Origin: Winogradskyella sp. PC-19
GTDB lineage: Bacteria; Bacteroidota; Bacteroidia; Flavobacteriales; Flavobacteriaceae
NCBI RefSeq assembly: GCF_002163855.1
Contig: NZ_CP019332.1
Coordinates: 2,273,145-2,337,144, forward strand
DNA: 64,000 nt
Direction of reading: 5' to 3'
The notes below the pieces were generated by a model that ran no database searches, was not told the DNA's origin, and saw nothing but the letters and a program-made list of their open reading frames with translations. Numbering within the stretch: position 1 is the stretch's first letter; the number at the start of each line of letters is the position of its first letter. Of the stretch, positions 48,862 to 63,875 are shown piece after piece. The position numbers and the translations under genes were made by a program.

Positions 48862-49962
48862 TTAAAGCGCACCTTTCTGATTCTTAAAAAAAGCATCAGC
48901 TTGTAATTGCATTAATTCACGTGCTTTTTTGTGCTTATAATTGATAACTTCTTCTTCGTCAGCTATGTCGTTGTAAACTTTATTGTTAACTTCATTATCC
49001 GTTTTTAATAATAGTTTACGTTCGTTTACTTTTTGTGTTACCCACGTTTTAATAGTGGTTTCTTGGTCTTGTAATCGAAAATCAAATTCACCTTTAGGAG
49101 ATAGTAGTTTGGCAAATATTGGAGATGTTTCAATAGCTAAGAATAATAAGAAAATAAAAAATGAAGGCAACCACGGTAAAGTTCCTAAAGCATTAACACG
49201 TGCCATCAAACCGTCAAAATTATCAATGACAGGTTGCGAAGTTTCTACATCACTTTTTTGAGTGTCTTGAAGCGATTTTATTTCAGTTTCTATACTTGCA
49301 ATTTTTACTTTATTATCTGTTTTTAACTGTTGTAAATCGGCTAAAGCCGCGTCGTGTTTTTCTCGTTTTTCTTTGTATACAGGACCTTTTCCTAAAAGCT
49401 GAGTCCCAGCTGTGCCTTCCGCTTCAGAAATGTAAGTGTCGTATAGTGTGTTGACCTCAGTCTCTTTAGTGTCTATTTCTGTTTGAAGTGCAACTATATC
49501 GTTTTGCAATTCAGTAATTCTTGGAGTAAACTGCTCTGCAATTTGGTTTTGATTTGCTAGAGTTAAATCGTTTTTTTGTTCTAATAATACTTGATTGATT
49601 TCTTTTTCGAAAATCTTTAATTCTAAAGGTTTTGATATGACTACAGCAATAATTATTGCTAGTAATAGTCTAGGCGTGGCTTGAAGAATTTCATCTATTA
49701 TACTGTCTCTTTTCTTAATAGTAGAGACTATATAGCGATCTAGATTGAAGATAAGTAATCCCCAAATAAGACCAAAAAAGATAGCAGAATATAGTGTGTC
49801 AAAAACAGTATATAAAGCATAACTAGCAGCTATAGTAGCCATTACTGCAGTGAAAAATACTGTAGCACCTATGCCAGCATACTTGTTTTGTTCTCCGATG
49901 GAACATTCTTTAAGAATATCTGTGTCTGCACCAGAACAGATGATGAAAAATTGTTTTAGCAT
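48862..49962 (-). CDS. DUF4407 membrane protein with periplasmic or cytoplasmic coiled coil
   Basis: 366 residues. Helices at about 30-48, 58-76 and 93-112 (the second has WGLLIFNLDRYIVSTI, the DUF4407 mark), a long coiled-coil segment from about 130 to 245 (QNDIVALQTEIDTKETEVNT and following), then a fourth helix (LPSFFIFLLFLAIETSPIFA) and a charged C-terminal tail of about 90 residues. Function unknown; in the family it is a plausible sensor or scaffold. Own transcript. Confidence 0.85.
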   Translation of the reverse strand: MLKQFFIICSGADTDILKECSIGEQNKYAGIGATVFFTAVMATIAASYALYTVFDTLYSAIFFGLIWGLLIFNLDRYIVSTIKKRDSIIDEILQATPRLLLAIIIAVVISKPLELKIFEKEINQVLLEQKNDLTLANQNQIAEQFTPRITELQNDIVALQTEIDTKETEVNTLYDTYISEAEGTAGTQLLGKGPVYKEKREKHDAALADLQQLKTDNKVKIASIETEIKSLQDTQKSDVETSQPVIDNFDGLMARVNALGTLPWLPSFFIFLLFLAIETSPIFAKLLSPKGEFDFRLQDQETTIKTWVTQKVNERKLLLKTDNEVNNKVYNDIADEEEVINYKHKKARELMQLQADAFFKNQKGAL

Positions 49963-50086: not shown

Positions 50087-53000
50087 TTATTTATTCTTTT
50101 TCATTATTGGCGGTGGTGGTGGCGGTAAAGTTTCTTTTTCTTCTTTAGTTAATTCCTTAAACTTTTTATAGTAGGTCTTTCCGCCTAGTGTAATCTTTAC
50201 ATAAGGTCTAATAGGTGCAATAGGTCTTTCTACTAATTTTTTATTCTCTTTTGAAAGTCTAAAATACATGCCGCCTAAGTCAGAAAATAAGGCGTCCATT
50301 TCTTTCTGTTGAGATTTACTTTTATTAATATAATGTGGCTTCTGATTTCTTAAAACCTCATAATGCTTATATTTTTTTAGATAAGATTCTATATTAACGA
50401 ACGAATCAGTACTTACGTCATTATAAGAATCAGGGTTTGGACCACTTTTTACATCTATACTAGTTCCTTTTATTCCTATCAAACTTGTTCTAATATTAAC
50501 TACTGGCGGTGTTATTGTTGATGCCATTGTAGCTTGAGGGTTCTTTTTAAGAATCCTCTTAGCTTTTTTAAAATCAATTTCTTTATTGTCTAAATAAAAC
50601 TTAGCTCCAATACTACTTATAGCTCTGATATATTCAATTCTATTATTCTTAGTAAGTTTTGGGATTGTATTCTCAACATTATTAGATATTAATACTATAA
50701 AACCGCTATGAGGACTATTATATGGATACAATCGCATTCTTGAATCTTTTTCAATTAAAGAGGTAGCTTCATTTAGAGACAAATGTGTATTGTAATGAGG
50801 AATTTTATTTGGTTTTGCATCTATTTGAGTAAAAATTACATCAGGACCATCTATTTTTTTTAGATAGTTGATCATTGCTTGTTGATTGGTATTTGGGCCA
50901 CCTTTGCTTTTAGACTTTTTTGGAGCTGGCGGCGGTGGCGGTGGAGGTATTCCTTCAGTTTGTTTCTTCTGCGCCTCGGTAAATGCTTCGTACATGTCTC
51001 TGTAATATTCATAGATTTCAACCGTCATATATTTAGGGTCGGGATTATCTCCTTTGATAAAATTAATCCAATCGTTGTAGGCTTTTACGTGGTGTTTCCC
51101 AAGCTTTCCTTTAGCCTCTTTTGGAACTGGCGGTGGCGGTGGTGGCGGAACATCAAAATCAGTTTTTATGGTTTTTGGGGACTTTGGTGCGGGCGGTGGC
51201 GGTAAAATATTACCTTTATTATCAGTAATATAGCCATCCTTATTATAGTAAGTTTTTTTTCCTTTGTAAATGATATAATAATGAGATTCTCCGTTTTCTA
51301 AAACTTCATAACCAGATTTAGCGCCTTTACGGGTATTTTTTATAATGTATTCTAAGGTTTTCTTTTTACCTTTTTTGTACTGTTTTACTTTTGTTGGCGG
51401 TGGTGGTAGCGGTGGAATATTTGGAAATGCTTCTGCATTTATTTTCTGCTTAGAGGACAATCTATTATAGATTGATTTGTATTGATTTATATCTTTTAAT
51501 TTTATGATGGGATAATCAAATTTATCTTTGTTTTGTTCCGCTTTCTTAATCTTTTGATTTAATGCACTTGCCCAAGCATTATATTCTTCAACTTCTTTTT
51601 TTGTTGGTGTTTTTTGTTGTTTTGCAGATTGTGGCGTTACTGAAACTCTAGTCTGACCTTCTTTTATTTCCATACCAGGAAATAGCATTTCTTCAGCGTT
51701 TTCTTTTTGTTGCTTGGTCATCCTTTTGTAAATATTAAGAGACTTTACTAGGTTTTCTTCTTCAATTGGAGGGTACCAAGTTGCATCTTTTGATAGCTTT
51801 TTACTTTTACTATTTACCTTTTTTGCCCAAGTATTATATTCTGCAATCTCTTTTGCTGTTGGTGGTTTATGTTGCCTAGAAGTTGTATTTCTGTTGCTTA
51901 AGAAAGGCTTATTCCCTTTACTTTTAATCACCTCTTGATTTTTGGTAACCAAACGGTGAAAACCATAATCTAAAAGAGAATTGTAAATAAACCAAACTTC
52001 GTCATTTGATTCTTTATCTGTAAAACTCACATGGATATTAATAATCCTATTTCGTATTTCTGATGATATATCTTGATGTAATTTATTAACTGTAGAAACG
52101 AAAGAAGCTTTGTTAGTCTTAACTCCATCTACTTCATAATTTTCATTACCTAATACTTTTATACTAATACTTCTAGCTGAGTGCGAAACCTTTACCGCAG
52201 GAACTGGAGGAGTAGTTTTTATATTATTTATTTTCAACTCCTCAGGAGAAAATGTTTTATAAATAGCATCAGCTTTCGATTTTAGAATTATTAATTCTGA
52301 GTTGTCGATTTGATCTCCTTTTAAATAATTTGAAATAGCATTAGAATATTTATCAGTAGCTTTTTTATATCGTTTTAATTGCGAGTCTTTATAAGTAGAT
52401 TTAAATCCAGCTTCGGTGTAAAGATGATATTGATTTGGTTGAGGAAATTTTTTACTGCGAGCATTTTTAAAAACTCTAGAGCCAGAAACGTGGACAAAAT
52501 CCTCGACTTTATAATTGTTTAATTCTGAATTTGAAACATGTTTATTGTCAATCCAGACAGCATACTCTTTGGTATTTTTAAAGGCTTCAAATTGAGTACT
52601 TGTAGGTTTCCTAGGCTTTATTTTAGATAGATTTGGCATAGGTATTATTCTATCCGGATATTTCTCAACAGACTCACGTTGACTGTCAGACATTAACTTG
52701 TCATAAATAACAATTGCTCTTTCGTAAGCATCGCCATATATGGTATTAGTCTCTTTAAATTTTTTGATGAAGTCCTTGTATTCATTCATTAATATTTGAG
52801 AGGCTTCCGTTTTCTTATTAAGAACTGAATTCTCATTTGACACTTGTGCAGAAAGTCTATCTTGATAACCTTCTTCAATTTCAATAACCTCTCTAGCGCT
52901 AAAGCTATAAGCTAAGACGCCTAAAATAGTTAAGGTTAGTAGGCTCAATAGCCAAATCTTTGATTTTGATGTTTGTGTTTTCATAACTGTAAATCGTTTT

Positions 53001-53749
53001 TTGATGGATGAATAATTGATGGCGTTAGCCAAGATGAAATCTTCGTCATTTGATGAGTATGACAATAATGTATTTTGATAGTTTACGGGTTCGAATCCGT
53101 TTTTGATAACAGCTTGATCGGCTAAAAATTCGTGATTAAGTTTAATTCGTGTTTTATACAACCAGATAAAAGGTTGAAACCAGAATACTATCTGAAGAAG
53201 CTCTATAAAAAGTACATCTAAACTGTGTTTTTGTTTCGCGTGGGTTTCTTCATGTAGTATTACTTCTTTTGGAAGTGCATTATTTTCGAACTTTGATTTA
53301 TTTAAAAATATGTAATTAAAAAAAGTGTGCGGGTTGATTAGTTGTCTGAGTAAAACAAAAGTTATCGAGGCTGCCTTTTGCTTTTCATTAGTGTTAATAG
53401 TTTTAAAAATTTGAGTTAAGTTTTTGAAAAATCTAAATGCAAAAACTGAAACGCCAATACTATAAATAGCCCAAAGTATACGTTCTAAATTCCAAAAAGG
53501 AGCTTCAATTATTTTTAATGGTTCTAATGCAACAAAAGGAATAGCTTCATTAATAAATAAGTTACCATCTAGAGGTTGAACGTAAACATATTCTGGAATG
53601 CTTATTAGTGGAATGCATATTGCAGCCACTAGAGATGTCAATAAATAAAAGCGTTTAAAACGATGAATACTTTCGCGTTCTAAAAATACCATATAAAGTA
53701 TCCAGAAAATCGCCAAAATAGCTGTTGATTTTAATAAGTAAAATTCCAT
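50087..53749 (-). CDS. Large M56 (BlaR1-like) metallopeptidase with proline-rich repeated sensor
   Basis: 1220 residues from the ATG at 53749 (MEFYLLKSTAILAIFWILYM, split), chosen because it begins the first helix; an upstream start would overlap blaI. Helices at about 7-25, 37-52, 95-110 and 285-305; zinc site H166-EETH-170 in LHEETHAKQKHSLD. The following 900 residues are periplasmic: at least three ~65-residue units of the form YN-x-W ... IY-x-x-M-x-x-x-QK ... AE-x-x-P-x-PPPP, separated by proline runs of 4-7 residues, and two ExbD/TonB-like parts. Much longer than typical BlaR1 (about 600). Coupled to its BlaI 7 bases upstream. Confidence 0.88.
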   Translation of the reverse strand: MEFYLLKSTAILAIFWILYMVFLERESIHRFKRFYLLTSLVAAICIPLISIPEYVYVQPLDGNLFINEAIPFVALEPLKIIEAPFWNLERILWAIYSIGVSVFAFRFFKNLTQIFKTINTNEKQKAASITFVLLRQLINPHTFFNYIFLNKSKFENNALPKEVILHEETHAKQKHSLDVLFIELLQIVFWFQPFIWLYKTRIKLNHEFLADQAVIKNGFEPVNYQNTLLSYSSNDEDFILANAINYSSIKKRFTVMKTQTSKSKIWLLSLLTLTILGVLAYSFSAREVIEIEEGYQDRLSAQVSNENSVLNKKTEASQILMNEYKDFIKKFKETNTIYGDAYERAIVIYDKLMSDSQRESVEKYPDRIIPMPNLSKIKPRKPTSTQFEAFKNTKEYAVWIDNKHVSNSELNNYKVEDFVHVSGSRVFKNARSKKFPQPNQYHLYTEAGFKSTYKDSQLKRYKKATDKYSNAISNYLKGDQIDNSELIILKSKADAIYKTFSPEELKINNIKTTPPVPAVKVSHSARSISIKVLGNENYEVDGVKTNKASFVSTVNKLHQDISSEIRNRIINIHVSFTDKESNDEVWFIYNSLLDYGFHRLVTKNQEVIKSKGNKPFLSNRNTTSRQHKPPTAKEIAEYNTWAKKVNSKSKKLSKDATWYPPIEEENLVKSLNIYKRMTKQQKENAEEMLFPGMEIKEGQTRVSVTPQSAKQQKTPTKKEVEEYNAWASALNQKIKKAEQNKDKFDYPIIKLKDINQYKSIYNRLSSKQKINAEAFPNIPPLPPPPTKVKQYKKGKKKTLEYIIKNTRKGAKSGYEVLENGESHYYIIYKGKKTYYNKDGYITDNKGNILPPPPAPKSPKTIKTDFDVPPPPPPPVPKEAKGKLGKHHVKAYNDWINFIKGDNPDPKYMTVEIYEYYRDMYEAFTEAQKKQTEGIPPPPPPPAPKKSKSKGGPNTNQQAMINYLKKIDGPDVIFTQIDAKPNKIPHYNTHLSLNEATSLIEKDSRMRLYPYNSPHSGFIVLISNNVENTIPKLTKNNRIEYIRAISSIGAKFYLDNKEIDFKKAKRILKKNPQATMASTITPPVVNIRTSLIGIKGTSIDVKSGPNPDSYNDVSTDSFVNIESYLKKYKHYEVLRNQKPHYINKSKSQQKEMDALFSDLGGMYFRLSKENKKLVERPIAPIRPYVKITLGGKTYYKKFKELTKEEKETLPPPPPPIMKKNK

Positions 53750-53756
53750 AGCGTAA

Positions 53757-54122
53757 TTATTTTTTCTTGATTTCTGAATCAATTATTTTTTTCAGAGCTT
53801 CTAATTCCTTCTTCGTTAAATCTGTTTTTGTGGTAAAAAACGAAGCAAACTGTGAGGCACTATCATTAAAAAAGTTTTTGATCAGTCCATTAACATGCTT
53901 AGAAAAATAGTCTTCTTTTTTTACTAGCGGATAATACTCTCTAGATTTTCCGAATGTTTTATAGGCAACAAAACCCTTATCTATCATGCGCTTTAATAAT
54001 GTTGCGATTGTTGTAGTCGCAGGTTTAGGTTCTGGATACACGTCCAACAAATCTTTCATAAAAGCTTTTTCTAGCTTCCATAAATGTTGCATGAGTTGTT
54101 CTTCAGTTTTTGAGAGTTGCAT
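53757..54122 (-). CDS. BlaI/MecI/CopY family transcriptional repressor (second copy)
   Basis: 121 residues. Winged helix: LSKTEEQLMQHLWKLEKAFM and TTTIATLLKRMIDKGFVAYK, wing GKSREYYPLVKKED, then a helical tail. Paralogue of the BlaI at 27973 (same layout, clearly diverged). Followed by its M56 partner. The promoter carries a TACA-N2-TGTA dyad over the -7 element, so autorepression is strongly suggested. Confidence 0.92.
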   Translation of the reverse strand: MQLSKTEEQLMQHLWKLEKAFMKDLLDVYPEPKPATTTIATLLKRMIDKGFVAYKTFGKSREYYPLVKKEDYFSKHVNGLIKNFFNDSASQFASFFTTKTDLTKKELEALKKIIDSEIKKK

Positions 54123-58612: not shown

Positions 58613-60991
58613 TTGGACATTAACGATAACATAGAGTCACCACTTATTCTTAAGGTCAGTTTTAATAAATATTTGAATCAGTTTCAAAGACTTATTAATG
58701 CTGACAATGATTTTATTGCTGCAAATGCAAGGCGTATACTAAAAATTGCTGATGATAATCCAGTATTAAGAGATGGTTTTAGCGACACGTCTTTATTTAA
58801 AACTTATGAGACTGAAATAGAGAGTTTACTTCAAGACGCATTTAGTCCATTACTAACAAATAATGAGATTAAAACAGCTTCTGTACCATTTCATGATCTT
58901 ATATTTAATTCATCTGAGCGTTTCAAATCTATTTTAAAAACAGCAGGAGAAGGGTTTGAATTACAAATAAAAAATATGCCTGTAGATCAGAGGTATATAA
59001 TAGCCTGTACAATTATTCTTAACTTCTGTTACGGATATAATCTTAATTTTAAAAGACCATTTTTTTACGAAATACCTGACGCTAATGGTATTATGCGTTA
59101 TTATAAAATTCTATATAATGCAGATTTTACAGAAATAGTACCTAAAAAGAATGTTCCTAAAATAACGGATGAAGATTATCACCAATTATTAGATAATTTT
59201 GAAAACATAGACCTTTGGAAAGAGAAATTTCCACCAAACAGTTATGAGTTCAAAGGTTTTGTAATATCTAATATTTTTGATGTTACTGATGATCAATCTA
59301 TATCAAATATTAAGTCCACTTTAATAGGAGAAGATAAAAGAAAAGATGAGAGCTTCATGGAAAATTTTCATGAGATTTTTCGCTCTCTACTTGGTTTAAA
59401 GGACATTAAAGTGGGGTTTTCTATTTATAACGAAGACGAAGATACGTTTGAGCGTGTTTATGGAACAGGTATGAATAGCTTTTTACTTAACGAATTAGAA
59501 ACTGCGGAATGTTCTGACTCATTGTGTAGCTGGTCTTATAATAGATTACTTAAAGAAAAGAAATACTTTTCAGTTTCTGATGTAGAGTTAATGTATAAGC
59601 GTTCTGAAGATCAAGCGCCACATGTAAGAGTACTTCATGAACAAGGTATACAAAGTGCCATATTTGCCCCAATAGCAAATGATCAAGGTTTAATGGGTAT
59701 TTTAGAAATTGTATCAGAAGAACCTAAGGTACTTAATAGCATTAACGCTAATAAACTTGTGGATGTGATGCCGTTTATTGTTTCAGCCGTTGAGCGTAGT
59801 AAGAATGAAGAGGAAAATTTAATTGAAGCCATAATTCAGCAAGAATGTACCTCTATTCACTCGAGTGTGCATTGGCGTTTTGAAAAAGAAGCTCGTAATT
59901 TTATAAAAGACCAACTCAATGGTCTAGAACCAAACTTCAATAAAATAGCGTTTGATAATGTATATCCACTTTATGGACAAATTGATATCAAAGGCTCATC
60001 AGAAGCAAGGAATTCTGCAACCCAGAAAGATTTAACACTGCAATTAAAGAAAATTGAAAAAATAATAAAAGAAGCTTCTAAATCAGATAGTCTGCCTATA
60101 TATGAACAGTATCGTTACCAGCTAAAACGATTTTTAGAAGATTTGAAAAATAATTTTCAGGTAGATAGCGAGCAGCGTATTTCAGCCTATATAAAAGAAG
60201 ACATTGAGCCAGTTTTAAAGCATCTTCACACAGATGAAAATTTAAAAGCTCAAATAGATGATTATTTTAAGGCCATTGATTTACAAACCAATGCTATATA
60301 TTATCACCGTAAAGATTATGATGATACCATTTCTATAATTAATAGAGAAATGGCTTCGGTTTTAGATACCAAGCAATTAGAAGCTCAAGATATGTATCCT
60401 CATTATTACGAGCGATATAAGACTGATGGTGTTGAGCATAACATGTATATTGGTGAGTCAATTACTAAGGAAAATAGTTTCAATCCAATTTATCTTTACA
60501 ATCTTAGATTGTGGCAATTGCAGATAATGTGTGAAATGGAAAATACCTATTATCAGATGCAAACGCAATCAAAATTTCCAGTTCACTTAGACGTTGCATC
60601 AATGATTTTAGTATTTAGTCAACCACTGTCTATAAGCTTTAGAATGGATGAAAAGCAGTTTGATGTAGATGGTACATATAATGCTAGATACGAAATTGTA
60701 AAAAAGCGAGTTGATAAAGCGTTTATAAAAGGCACAAACGAACGTATTACTCAAAAAGGGAAAATTACAATAGTATATTCTCAAAAAGAAGACGAGAGAG
60801 AATATTTGAGATACGTTAGATTTTTACAATCAAAACATTATTTAGATACAGATGTCGAAATTTTAGAGCTTCAGGATTTGCAAGCAGTAACGGGTCTAAA
60901 AGCAATTAGGGTAAGTGTATTATACCATAAAGAAGATAATGACAAAGCGTATTATACTTATGATGATTTAATGAAAGAAATAAGTGCCTAA
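58613..60991 (+). CDS. Large GAF-domain protein of unknown function
   Basis: 792 residues, TTG start. A helical N-terminal region (1-245) is followed by a GAF-like domain at about 245-405 (FHEIFRSLLGLKDIKVGFSI, IQSAIFAPIANDQGLMGILE, split at 20), then a long helical part with the charged RFLEDLKNNFQVDSEQRISA region and a C-terminal beta/alpha part (MILVFSQPLSISFRMDEKQF). No kinase, cyclase or HTH output is visible. No membrane segment. It overlaps the convergent HD-PycTM gene by 4 bases. Possibly a cytosolic sensor; ligand unknown. Confidence 0.7.
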   Translation: MDINDNIESPLILKVSFNKYLNQFQRLINADNDFIAANARRILKIADDNPVLRDGFSDTSLFKTYETEIESLLQDAFSPLLTNNEIKTASVPFHDLIFNSSERFKSILKTAGEGFELQIKNMPVDQRYIIACTIILNFCYGYNLNFKRPFFYEIPDANGIMRYYKILYNADFTEIVPKKNVPKITDEDYHQLLDNFENIDLWKEKFPPNSYEFKGFVISNIFDVTDDQSISNIKSTLIGEDKRKDESFMENFHEIFRSLLGLKDIKVGFSIYNEDEDTFERVYGTGMNSFLLNELETAECSDSLCSWSYNRLLKEKKYFSVSDVELMYKRSEDQAPHVRVLHEQGIQSAIFAPIANDQGLMGILEIVSEEPKVLNSINANKLVDVMPFIVSAVERSKNEEENLIEAIIQQECTSIHSSVHWRFEKEARNFIKDQLNGLEPNFNKIAFDNVYPLYGQIDIKGSSEARNSATQKDLTLQLKKIEKIIKEASKSDSLPIYEQYRYQLKRFLEDLKNNFQVDSEQRISAYIKEDIEPVLKHLHTDENLKAQIDDYFKAIDLQTNAIYYHRKDYDDTISIINREMASVLDTKQLEAQDMYPHYYERYKTDGVEHNMYIGESITKENSFNPIYLYNLRLWQLQIMCEMENTYYQMQTQSKFPVHLDVASMILVFSQPLSISFRMDEKQFDVDGTYNARYEIVKKRVDKAFIKGTNERITQKGKITIVYSQKEDEREYLRYVRFLQSKHYLDTDVEILELQDLQAVTGLKAIRVSVLYHKEDNDKAYYTYDDLMKEISA

Positions 60992-62187
60992 GCTGGGTTT
61001 CCTGATACTGCAAAAGATATAGCAAAAGCTATTACACTTATGACTAAGCCTATTATAAATACAGTATAAGTTGTTCGCAGTAAGTTGTATTTTCTGTTTA
61101 ATACTAATCCTAAAAAGTATAAATCTTTAGTAAGAGAACCATAAAGATAGTCTTTGTCTTTCATCATTTCGGTCATAGCCCATTCAAACTCATCGAGTTT
61201 CATTTGATGAAAATTTCCAAAGAATAAAAGATTGACCTTTTTGTTAGCAACATCTTCTTTAGTAAACTTACCTTTGGTCACATTTGGCCTAGTAGCCATA
61301 ACAGAAAGTACAATAGACGCTACTGTAGACGTCATAAAAATAAGTGTCGGATAGATTAGATATGTATTTGAAGGATTATCTAATTTTGGTAATAAATTAG
61401 ACAAGGCAACAGATATAATAATTGCATTAACAGATAGTAAAATATTGGCTTTTGTATCCGCAATATCGCTGAGTGTTATATGATTTCTTAATGCAACCCG
61501 GAACATGGTCTCAATGCCACGGTCTGGTAAATCTAATTTCTCCTTTTTAAATTTTAATTCTGCCTTTTTCTGTTTTAGTTTTTCAGTAGATGCTTTGATT
61601 TTGTTTTGACTCTGTATAAGATTAGCTAGATTTTTACCTTTTCTACCTTCCCATTTACTTGCTGCTAAAGAAGAATAGAAAGTATGGTTGGTCAAAAAGT
61701 TAATATTCTCTTCAATCCACTCTGATTTAGGTATTTTTTTACCCAAAGTTAATTCCCACTCTTTGCGTAATAAGGATGCGTAATTATCATAATTTTTACT
61801 AGATATATGAGCACAGTCAGCATCTCTAATAATACCTTCGAGGTTAGTTTTAGGCTCATAAGCCATTTCTGTTGCAAGAATGATTTTAGAGATTGCTTTA
61901 ATATCTTCTTCAGAACCATTATTTTCTTTTAAAAAGGCTTTGGCTATTTTTGCGCTTTCTTTTTCGTGTCCTTTTATGGTTTTTGTAAATCCTGTGTCAT
62001 GAAACCAAGCTGCTAAAATAAGCTGGTGTTGTTCGGTTTCGGAGAGATTACTTTCTTTAGCTAAATCTTTAGCCTTATTAACAACACGTTGAGTATGTGC
62101 TAGATTATGATATACAAACTTGGAGTCTAGATTGTCATTTAAGAACTTTGTTACAAAATCTTCAGCCTTTTTTATAAGTGTTTCCAT
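60988..62187 (-). CDS. HD-domain phosphohydrolase fused to a PycTM (Pycsar effector-like) membrane domain
   Basis: 399 residues. Residues 20-170 form an HD domain: metal ligands in YHNLAHTQRV (His), AAWFHDTGF (His-Asp) and IIRDADCAHI (Asp). A coiled coil (KIKASTEKLKQKKAELKFKK) links to a C-terminal region starting GIETMFRVALRNHITLSDIA with three or four helices (LLSVNAIIISVALSNLL, LIFMTSTVASIVLSVMAT, VFIIGLVISVIAFAISF), the pattern of PycTM, the membrane effector of Pycsar anti-phage systems. No uridylate or cytidylate cyclase is adjacent. Domain call by pattern; function as a self-resetting nucleotide-gated effector is inference. Confidence 0.78.
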   Translation of the reverse strand: METLIKKAEDFVTKFLNDNLDSKFVYHNLAHTQRVVNKAKDLAKESNLSETEQHQLILAAWFHDTGFTKTIKGHEKESAKIAKAFLKENNGSEEDIKAISKIILATEMAYEPKTNLEGIIRDADCAHISSKNYDNYASLLRKEWELTLGKKIPKSEWIEENINFLTNHTFYSSLAASKWEGRKGKNLANLIQSQNKIKASTEKLKQKKAELKFKKEKLDLPDRGIETMFRVALRNHITLSDIADTKANILLSVNAIIISVALSNLLPKLDNPSNTYLIYPTLIFMTSTVASIVLSVMATRPNVTKGKFTKEDVANKKVNLLFFGNFHQMKLDEFEWAMTEMMKDKDYLYGSLTKDLYFLGLVLNRKYNLLRTTYTVFIIGLVISVIAFAISFAVSGNPA

Positions 62188-62654: not shown

Positions 62655-63875
62655 ATGAAAAGTCAAAAACTAAAAATCGAAAATCGAAACGGAATTACGT
62701 TGCATGCTCATTTAGAGTTACCAGCAAATCAAAAACCAAATTACTACACCATTTTTGCACATTGTTTTACTTGTAGTAGTAGTTTGAGTGCAGTCCGAAA
62801 TGTAAGCAGAGCATTAACTCAAGACGGTTTTGCGGTGGTTCGTTTTGATTTTACAGGATTAGGTAGAAGCGAAGGTGAGTTTGCGGACAGTCATTTTTCA
62901 GCAAATGTAGACGACCTATTAGATGTACACGCTTATATGACTCAACATTTTGATGCACCTAGTTTATTAGTTGGTCATTCCTTAGGTGGTGCAGCAGTTT
63001 TAGTCGCAGCCTCAAAAATAAAAGCGATAAAAGCAGTTGCAACAATCGGAGCTCCTGCAGACGTAGAACATGTAAAACACTTGTTTTCTCATGGAATTGA
63101 TGAGGTGAAAGAAAAAGGAGAAGCTCAGGTAAATATTGGTGGACGTCCTTTTAAGATAAACACCAGTTTTGTTGAAGCTTTTGATAAGACAGACTTACCA
63201 AAGATTGTTAAAGATCTCAGAAAACCATTGTTGATTTTGCATTCTCCAATAGACACCATTGTAGGCATAAATAATGCTGAAAAATTATATATCAGTGCAC
63301 ATCATCCCAAGAGTTTTATAACGTTAGATGATGCAGACCATTTATTGTCTAAAGAACGAGATAGTTTGTATGTAGGAGAAGTTATCGGTACTTGGGTGAA
63401 ACGTTATTTTCCTCAAATAGAAAATACAATGTTAGATACAGAAGGTGAGCAGCTAGTTGGTCATCTAAATATAGTCGAAGATAATTTTACGACTTCCATA
63501 CAAACAAAGAATCATACAATGATTGCTGACGAACCTGCTAGTATTGGAGGTAGCGATTTTGGTCCTTCACCATACGAATACCTAAACGCAGCTTTAGCCG
63601 CATGTACAGTCATGACACTAAAAATGTACGCAGAGCGTAAGAAATGGGATTTACAAGAAGTCTTTGTGTATATTTCGCATTCTAGAGTTCATAGTGATGA
63701 CTTAAATGTAAGCGTAGATAAGCCAAAATATTTAGATCATATCAGCAAAAAACTAAAATTTGTTGGTAACTTAGACAATCAGCAAAAAGAAAGATTGAAA
63801 GAGATTGCATCGCGTTGCCCAGTTCATAAAACAATTGCTAGCGAAGTTATTTTTGACACAAAAATATTAGACTAA
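62655..63875 (+). CDS. Alpha/beta hydrolase-OsmC fusion protein
   Basis: 406 residues. N-terminal alpha/beta hydrolase (1-250): nucleophile [16 protein letters not shown] (Ser near 108), acid [16 protein letters not shown], His in [10 protein letters not shown]-terminal OsmC/Ohr domain (about 270-405): [20 protein letters not shown] and SRCPVHKTI supply the two redox cysteines used by Ohr-type thiol peroxidases against organic hydroperoxides. The fusion is a known architecture and suggests an esterase plus peroxidase acting on the same oxidised lipids. Six bases before the EgtB-like start. Confidence 0.9.

Follow-up and report, generated by a model that had tools for sequence, protein, structure and literature searches.

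A conserved HD-PycTM fusion protein of Bacteroidota is a candidate membrane-associated phosphodiesterase

Introduction

What does a Pycsar effector domain do when it is fused to a phosphohydrolase domain and stands apart from any cyclase? The question is raised by an open reading frame (ORF) of 399 amino acids (aa) in the chromosome of Winogradskyella sp. PC-19 (60988..62187, minus strand, ATG start). Positions refer to the 64,000-nucleotide stretch that was analysed (contig NZ_CP019332.1, positions 2,273,145 to 2,337,144; the window). A preliminary description of the window had read this ORF as an HD domain fused to a PycTM-like C-terminal part. It had offered three meanings: a host system whose HD part clears the signal that opens PycTM, an orphan answering a distant cyclase, or a housekeeping nucleotide sensor that later gave rise to the defence effector. 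In the literature searched (full-text queries; titles and starts of abstracts among the matches listed) we found no description of an HD-PycTM fusion. We propose, with a probability of about one half, that HD-PycTM is an inner-membrane signalling protein of Bacteroidota and a candidate phosphodiesterase, in which HD would degrade the ligand sensed by PycTM.

Results

Profile searches agreed with the proposed domain composition. Pfam placed an HD domain (PF01966) at residues 30-125 of the ORF (E 4.4e-8). The search with the Pfam profile of PycTM (PF18967), which the preliminary description had suggested as a check, matched residues 270-380 (E 2e-37; 128.3 bits against a cut-off of 27.2), and the PADLOC PycTM models matched residues 235-391 (best E 3.8e-17). 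The HD domain (residues 1-190; 61618..62187, minus strand) carries YHNxxH at residues 26-31, HD at 63-64, HE at 74-75, T106 and D122/D124. It is followed by a charged helical linker (residues 191-221; 61525..61617, minus strand), with a modelled helix at residues 173-215, and by the PycTM module (residues 222-399; 60991..61524, minus strand), in which three long helices (222-269, 272-299 and 345-395) surround a loop with a GNF motif. The motif RVALRNHITLSDIADTKAN was read in the ORF translation at residues 230-248 (61444..61500, minus strand). The AlphaFold2 model (mean predicted local distance difference test, pLDDT, 83.6; predicted template modelling score 0.54) showed a confident HD domain (pLDDT ~95 over residues 1-200), the helical linker and the three long helices, with the loop between helices 2 and 3.

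The H...HD...D signature of the HD superfamily is present, with the metal ligands H31, H63, D64 and D122 intact in the window protein. We aligned homologues from 124 HD-PycTM loci, 80 close and 44 wider (one gene enters both sets, as L021 and L207), and 119 of the 124 rows retained all four ligands. The preliminary description had named two findings that would refute it, a missing PycTM profile match and an HD domain without metal ligands in homologues, and neither was borne out. Mean majority identity was 0.77 in the PycTM part versus 0.56 in HD, and among the three regions measured the PycTM module was the most and the linker the least conserved.

The genome collection gave 230 confirmed relatives, of which the best 80 make up the close loci. 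They share 59-87% identity and come mostly from Winogradskyella, Tenacibaculum, Polaribacter and other Flavobacteriaceae, with Winogradskyella jejuensis as the nearest relative. Of 149 Flavobacteriaceae genomes, 119 carry full-length HD-PycTM (E <1e-100, a threshold set by us); among 20 listed genomes of this family that gave no match at all, 16 are ≤2.7 Mb in size. No viral copy was confirmed in one IMG/VR scan, in which 82 stretches fitted two peptide patterns. Phage records gave one match, to HD only, and plasmid records gave four, including a nearly complete copy on a Persicobacter replicon of 859 kb. When PADLOC was run over 10 neighbouring genes, the sole match was weak and covered 36 residues of an oxidoreductase; we judged it spurious and rejected a defence-island reading of the neighbourhood. 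Because of the presence in 119 of 149 genomes, the few mobile copies and the single weak PADLOC neighbour, we conclude that HD-PycTM is a conserved chromosomal gene and not a mobile defence gene.

The protein thus has an effector module of the PycTM/PycTIR type in a setting that differs from Pycsar. Two custom cyclase hidden Markov models (HMMs; E 0.1, frame stretches of at least 50 codons) found no class III cyclase in the window, in agreement with the preliminary description; in the same scan, the HD and PycTM HMMs matched the 60988..62187 ORF alone. Nor was a PycC cyclase encoded beside the fusion in any of the 80 close loci, in flanking sequence that reached at most 8 kb on each side and was shortened in places by contig ends. 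The distribution is likewise not sporadic, mobile or tied to defence islands (0, 1 and 4 records among viruses, phages and plasmids). These data bear on the idea of a fixed chromosomal anti-phage device, in which HD would hold a PycTM pore off until infection by a phage upsets the nucleotide or inhibits HD. Homologues of Pycsar PycTM are said to disrupt membranes by pore formation (available part of PMC11224242), and Panoptes offers a precedent for decoy logic (available part of PMC12657218). The spread through most genomes, the conserved neighbours, the slow evolution, which is unlike that of the mostly long-branched low-scoring PycTM copies described below, and the scarcity of mobile copies and of PADLOC matches nearby make such a device very unlikely.

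PF18967 was present in 76 of 198 genomes of a phylum-level sample. We distinguished three classes of PycTM: HD fusions of ~390-455 aa, scoring 84-134 bits; short copies of the core type, ~185-250 aa long and scoring 84-120 bits; and stand-alone copies with low scores of 27-73 bits (L203, from which no ORF was recovered, is excluded). The low-scoring class is largely ordinary Pycsar-like: a cyclase lies no more than 1 kb away in 12 of its 20 loci, with a clear PADLOC PycC in L188, L190, L192, L196 and L206. The earlier expectation that PycTM normally lies beside a cyclase therefore held for this class and failed for HD-PycTM (0/80 close and 2/44 wider loci). In a quick, unrooted PycTM tree of 105 rows, which includes 13 of the 80 close loci and carries support from the Shimodaira-Hasegawa-like approximate likelihood-ratio test (SH-aLRT) only, most core copies had short branches and most low-class copies long ones. 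The core status of the gene supports the housekeeping part of the third meaning; recruitment of the defence effector from it is only a possible direction on an unrooted tree in which the low-class copies are mostly long-branched.

HD, PycTM and class III cyclases were found paired in genomes in every pairwise combination. Two loci that seemed to hold degenerate HD fusions (L148 and L167) in fact encode class III cyclase-PycTM fusions and were left out of the HD counts. In the class to which these fusions belong, a lineage other than that of the window, 244 genomes were searched at E 1e-20 (tallies read from the result table by hand), with matches in 77. PycTM of the slowly evolving kind was present in 72 of these genomes and was fused to a class III cyclase in 10. 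A separate, closely similar cyclase (55-74% identical) occurred in 25 of the 72; it was adjacent in 15, on the same strand 9-12 kb away in five, and further off or on another contig in five. The other 37 had no such cyclase, with a more distant cyclase match elsewhere in G505 and G515, and five genomes of the class had a cyclase match and no PycTM.

All 19 aligned linked cyclases retained the two metal aspartates and the Asn/Arg pair. In all 19, Gln and Gly replaced the Lys and Asp of the canonical adenylate type, positions which we take to be base-selecting in that type. The two HD-PycTM loci with a cyclase (L168 and L175) are both convergent arrangements, in which the cyclase has a hydrophobic N-terminal half and, on inspection by eye, again a Gln where the base is selected. 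The linked cyclases also differ from PycC in the UTP- and CTP-selecting residues given in the available part of PMC11224242.

The HD domain was also linked to cyclases outside the PycTM fusions. Its profile matched 70 of the 198 phylum-sample genomes at E 1e-15, and 47 copies (hand-counted from the table) were not fused to PycTM; neighbours were examined in 44, as L266-L268 gave no HD ORF. Two copies are fused to a class III cyclase within a single ORF (L281, 528 aa; L292, 1865 aa; both confirmed by Pfam), five are direct neighbours of a cyclase gene (L273, L278, L284, L287 and L199) and four more are within three genes of one (L164, L282, L285 and L286). The rough chance expectation for immediate neighbours was 0.07, assuming 3500 genes per genome and taking cyclase counts from the phylum sample, with zero for unlisted genomes. 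Nine of the 11 cyclase-linked HDs fell into one 18-member HD clade (SH-aLRT 98).

Runs of all three genes were present as well. In L164 and L235, a gene of 1245-1248 aa, the cyclase, PycTM and HD succeed one another on one strand with gaps of <165 bp, and these are putative operons. In L199, a Pycsar-like PycTM is convergent with a cyclase and HD. L161 has no such run, but a stand-alone HD and PycTM share 14 bp there, and genes resembling sixA and ppk by eye come after them. HD of the L164 type occurred in only 3 of the 244 genomes (E 1e-12), all with PycTM, two in runs and one fused. The fusions of HD-PycTM, HD-cyclase and cyclase-PycTM and the three-gene runs lend genomic support to the earlier suggestion that HD belongs to a host system and clears the signal of PycTM.

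Stand-alone HD genes had a further type of partner. The matches listed included 16 further HD loci from 14 Flavobacteriaceae genomes. A CRP-type regulator that binds cyclic nucleoside monophosphates (cNMPs) adjoins or overlaps the HD gene in four of them (L241, L245, L246 and L244), a cyclase lies one gene away in one, and eleven have neither. L244 also has a weak cyclase match (215 aa, E 1e-5) at a distance of two genes from HD, left uncounted here.

PycTM is not the only membrane partner of the HD family. In the 18-member clade, a YitT membrane protein takes its place, fused to HD in L273 and L286 and adjacent to it in six more loci. The fused proteins (L273:4853-6310 and L286:5686-7146) consist of HD, YitT with five transmembrane (TM) segments and DUF2179. 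A second partner of this kind is what a trivial association would produce, with PycTM as a promiscuous anchor of two to three TM segments and HD as a promiscuous enzyme. Both YitT fusions, however, have a class III cyclase no more than three genes away, and HD-cyclase adjacency exceeds the rough chance estimate, so that we regard mere promiscuity as the least probable of the alternatives.

Several other genes were noted around these loci. In the window, a 792-aa protein (58613..60991, plus strand) is convergent to HD-PycTM with the 4-bp overlap noted earlier; its GAF match is weak (E 0.024, under the Pfam cut-off). Its homologue was present in 78 of the 80 close loci, convergent within 1 kb in 74, and in 21 of the 44 wider loci, 20 of them convergent within 1 kb. 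The position of the GAF-type gene next to HD-PycTM and its convergent orientation are conserved. The Pfam library itself was applied to 12 window proteins and identified a DUF4407 protein (48862-49962), a 1231-aa BlaR1/M56 peptidase protein (50087-53782) and an alpha/beta hydrolase fused to OsmC (62655-63875). We had considered 50087-53782 as a metallophosphoesterase partner and rejected it, given the BlaR1/M56 assignment.

Neighbour clusters were built by single linkage from mechanically called ORFs. One such cluster, of a ~1240-aa protein (L116:2511-6245, L164:891-4628 and homologues), was represented in the sequence fetched for 61/80 close, 32/44 wider HD and 12/27 short-class loci; it joins a metallophosphoesterase match in L116 and an Omp85 match in L164. 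The large gene of L164 and L235 thus clusters with the L116 metallophosphoesterase, while the L164 copy itself gives only the Omp85 match. SixA-like and polyphosphate-kinase-like genes (names by eye) follow PycTM in L161, L135, L136, L172 and others. L287:5699-8341, which adjoins a cyclase, and L289:3787-6366 encode proteins of 859-880 aa that combine TPR repeats with an HD domain of the same family at the C-terminus; their start looks TIR-like by eye and gave no Pfam TIR match.

Discussion

The most economical reading of the pairings is that the cyclase makes a nucleotide, PycTM reads it at the membrane and HD breaks it, the window protein being a fusion of reader and breaker. Class III cyclases make 3',5'-cyclic mononucleotides in characterised cases. 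We infer that HD would lie on the cytosolic side and would probably act as a metal-dependent phosphodiesterase for a cyclic nucleotide, most likely a mononucleotide. The PycTM module would be the membrane part that binds this ligand and reads or transmits it. Tethered to PycTM, HD would set the duration of the ligand-bound state and in this way control its partner. We suggest more tentatively that Bacteroidota and their relatives possess an undescribed core system, composed of a cyclase with non-canonical base-selecting residues, a PycTM receptor or ligand-gated pore and an HD phosphodiesterase, fused pairwise, of which the PycTM of Pycsar may be a mobile, fast-evolving offshoot.

A number of observations weigh against a role of HD-PycTM in removing a cyclic nucleotide, and the first group concerns the HD domain. 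The HD model can be superposed on class I cyclic-nucleotide phosphodiesterases, the group of PDE10A, PDE7 and PDE5. However, the bacterial HD structure 2pq7 ties with them on Z score (17.7), though over fewer residues and with a worse root-mean-square deviation, and such a shared class-I-like fold of the model shows no substrate. Foldseek with the HD model gave no match at E ≤0.001. The PDEase_I profile reached 14.6 bits on the window HD, under its cut-off of 24.8, and 10 of 30 family members matched it at E ≤1. By sequence, HD is nearer to bacterial HD hydrolases than to these phosphodiesterases, with profile matches of E 1e-5 to 9e-9 to 2pq7, 3b57, 3gw7 (YedJ), 3djb, 3dto and 2qgs, most of them uncharacterised. 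Moreover, the metal ligands are degenerate in 5 of the 124 HD domains, and no ligand pocket was seen in a model of PycTM alone, because the prediction is of low confidence (pLDDT 67) and gave no informative matches in the PDB.

These relationships would suit a housekeeping phosphohydrolase of the YpgQ/YedJ type, for which PycTM would be a mere anchor and cyclic nucleotides irrelevant in the window's lineage; its substrates would be deoxynucleoside triphosphates (dNTPs), nucleoside triphosphates (NTPs) or nucleoside monophosphates. The nearest solved sequences are of this kind, YpgQ structures were among the Foldseek matches, and many host genomes have no class III cyclase (see below). According to the available part of PMC8177086, YpgQ hydrolyses NTPs and dNTPs. 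A mere anchor leaves unexplained why PycTM is the best conserved part, why HD occurs beside CRP regulators and why HD, PycTM and class III cyclases share pairwise fusions and gene runs. We consider this explanation unlikely, though the most probable of the alternatives.

The second group concerns the cyclases. One was present within 1 kb in only 2 of the 124 HD-PycTM loci, and the chance estimate for HD-cyclase neighbours was made without a matched control HD family. The class III cyclase domain PF00211 was absent from 30 of the 119 Flavobacteriaceae genomes carrying HD-PycTM, and from 28 of 45 genomes checked among those behind the 80 close loci; the PADLOC PycC models PDLC02367 and PDLC02370 had no match in these 28. 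In the phylum sample, PF00211 was absent from 13 of 40 HD-PycTM genomes, two of which have a PycC with its own PycTM, so that 11 were without any cyclase by the three models. An orphan that answers a distant cyclase is possible in some genomes, and because of the 30 of 119 it is not general if that cyclase is of class III.

The persistence of HD-PycTM in such hosts could also mean that it is a relative acting on another cyclic ligand, for example cyclic di-AMP or 2',3'-cNMPs from RNA decay. YpgQ-like HD proteins have a broad activity that includes 2',3'-cyclic phosphodiesterase (available part of PMC8431786). Against this, the cyclases fused or adjacent to these domains are of class III, and no direct evidence for another ligand emerged, although no search was aimed at diadenylate cyclases. 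We therefore view another ligand as improbable.

If HD-PycTM does remove the ligand of PycTM, a catalogued Pycsar effector domain would be largely a core signalling module in Bacteroidota, and defence annotation from PF18967 alone would therefore overcall Pycsar there. The pairwise fusions would indicate the input of PycTM, cyclase-PycTM naming the source of the signal and HD-PycTM its sink. The HD family would gain a place among candidate cyclic-nucleotide phosphodiesterases, and relatives of the fusion protein that are joined to cyclases suggest an old signalling set that makes, senses and breaks.

The protein can be set beside four known groups. From class I phosphodiesterases it differs in its shorter HD, the PDEase_I score below cut-off and the fusion to a membrane module, phosphodiesterase activity being only predicted here. 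It shares the H...HD...D site with the YpgQ/YedJ hydrolases, its nearest solved sequences, which are without a membrane module; we know of no cyclase pairing of these hydrolases. With Panoptes (OptS/OptE) and the 2TM effectors of CBASS it has in common a small membrane effector under nucleotide control, and PADLOC has several 2TM effector models that fit the PycTM part of the ORF (best E 1.2e-12). OptE, however, combines a two-pass element with a beta-barrel nucleotide-binding domain (available part of PMC12657218), has no HD and goes with another synthase. With Pycsar it shares the PF18967 membrane module and a link to cyclases somewhere in the tree. Unlike Pycsar, HD-PycTM carries a fused HD and has no cyclase in the flanks of 80/80 close loci, and it is conserved, chromosomal and slowly evolving, its core PycTM scoring 84-134 bits versus 27-73 in the low-scoring class.

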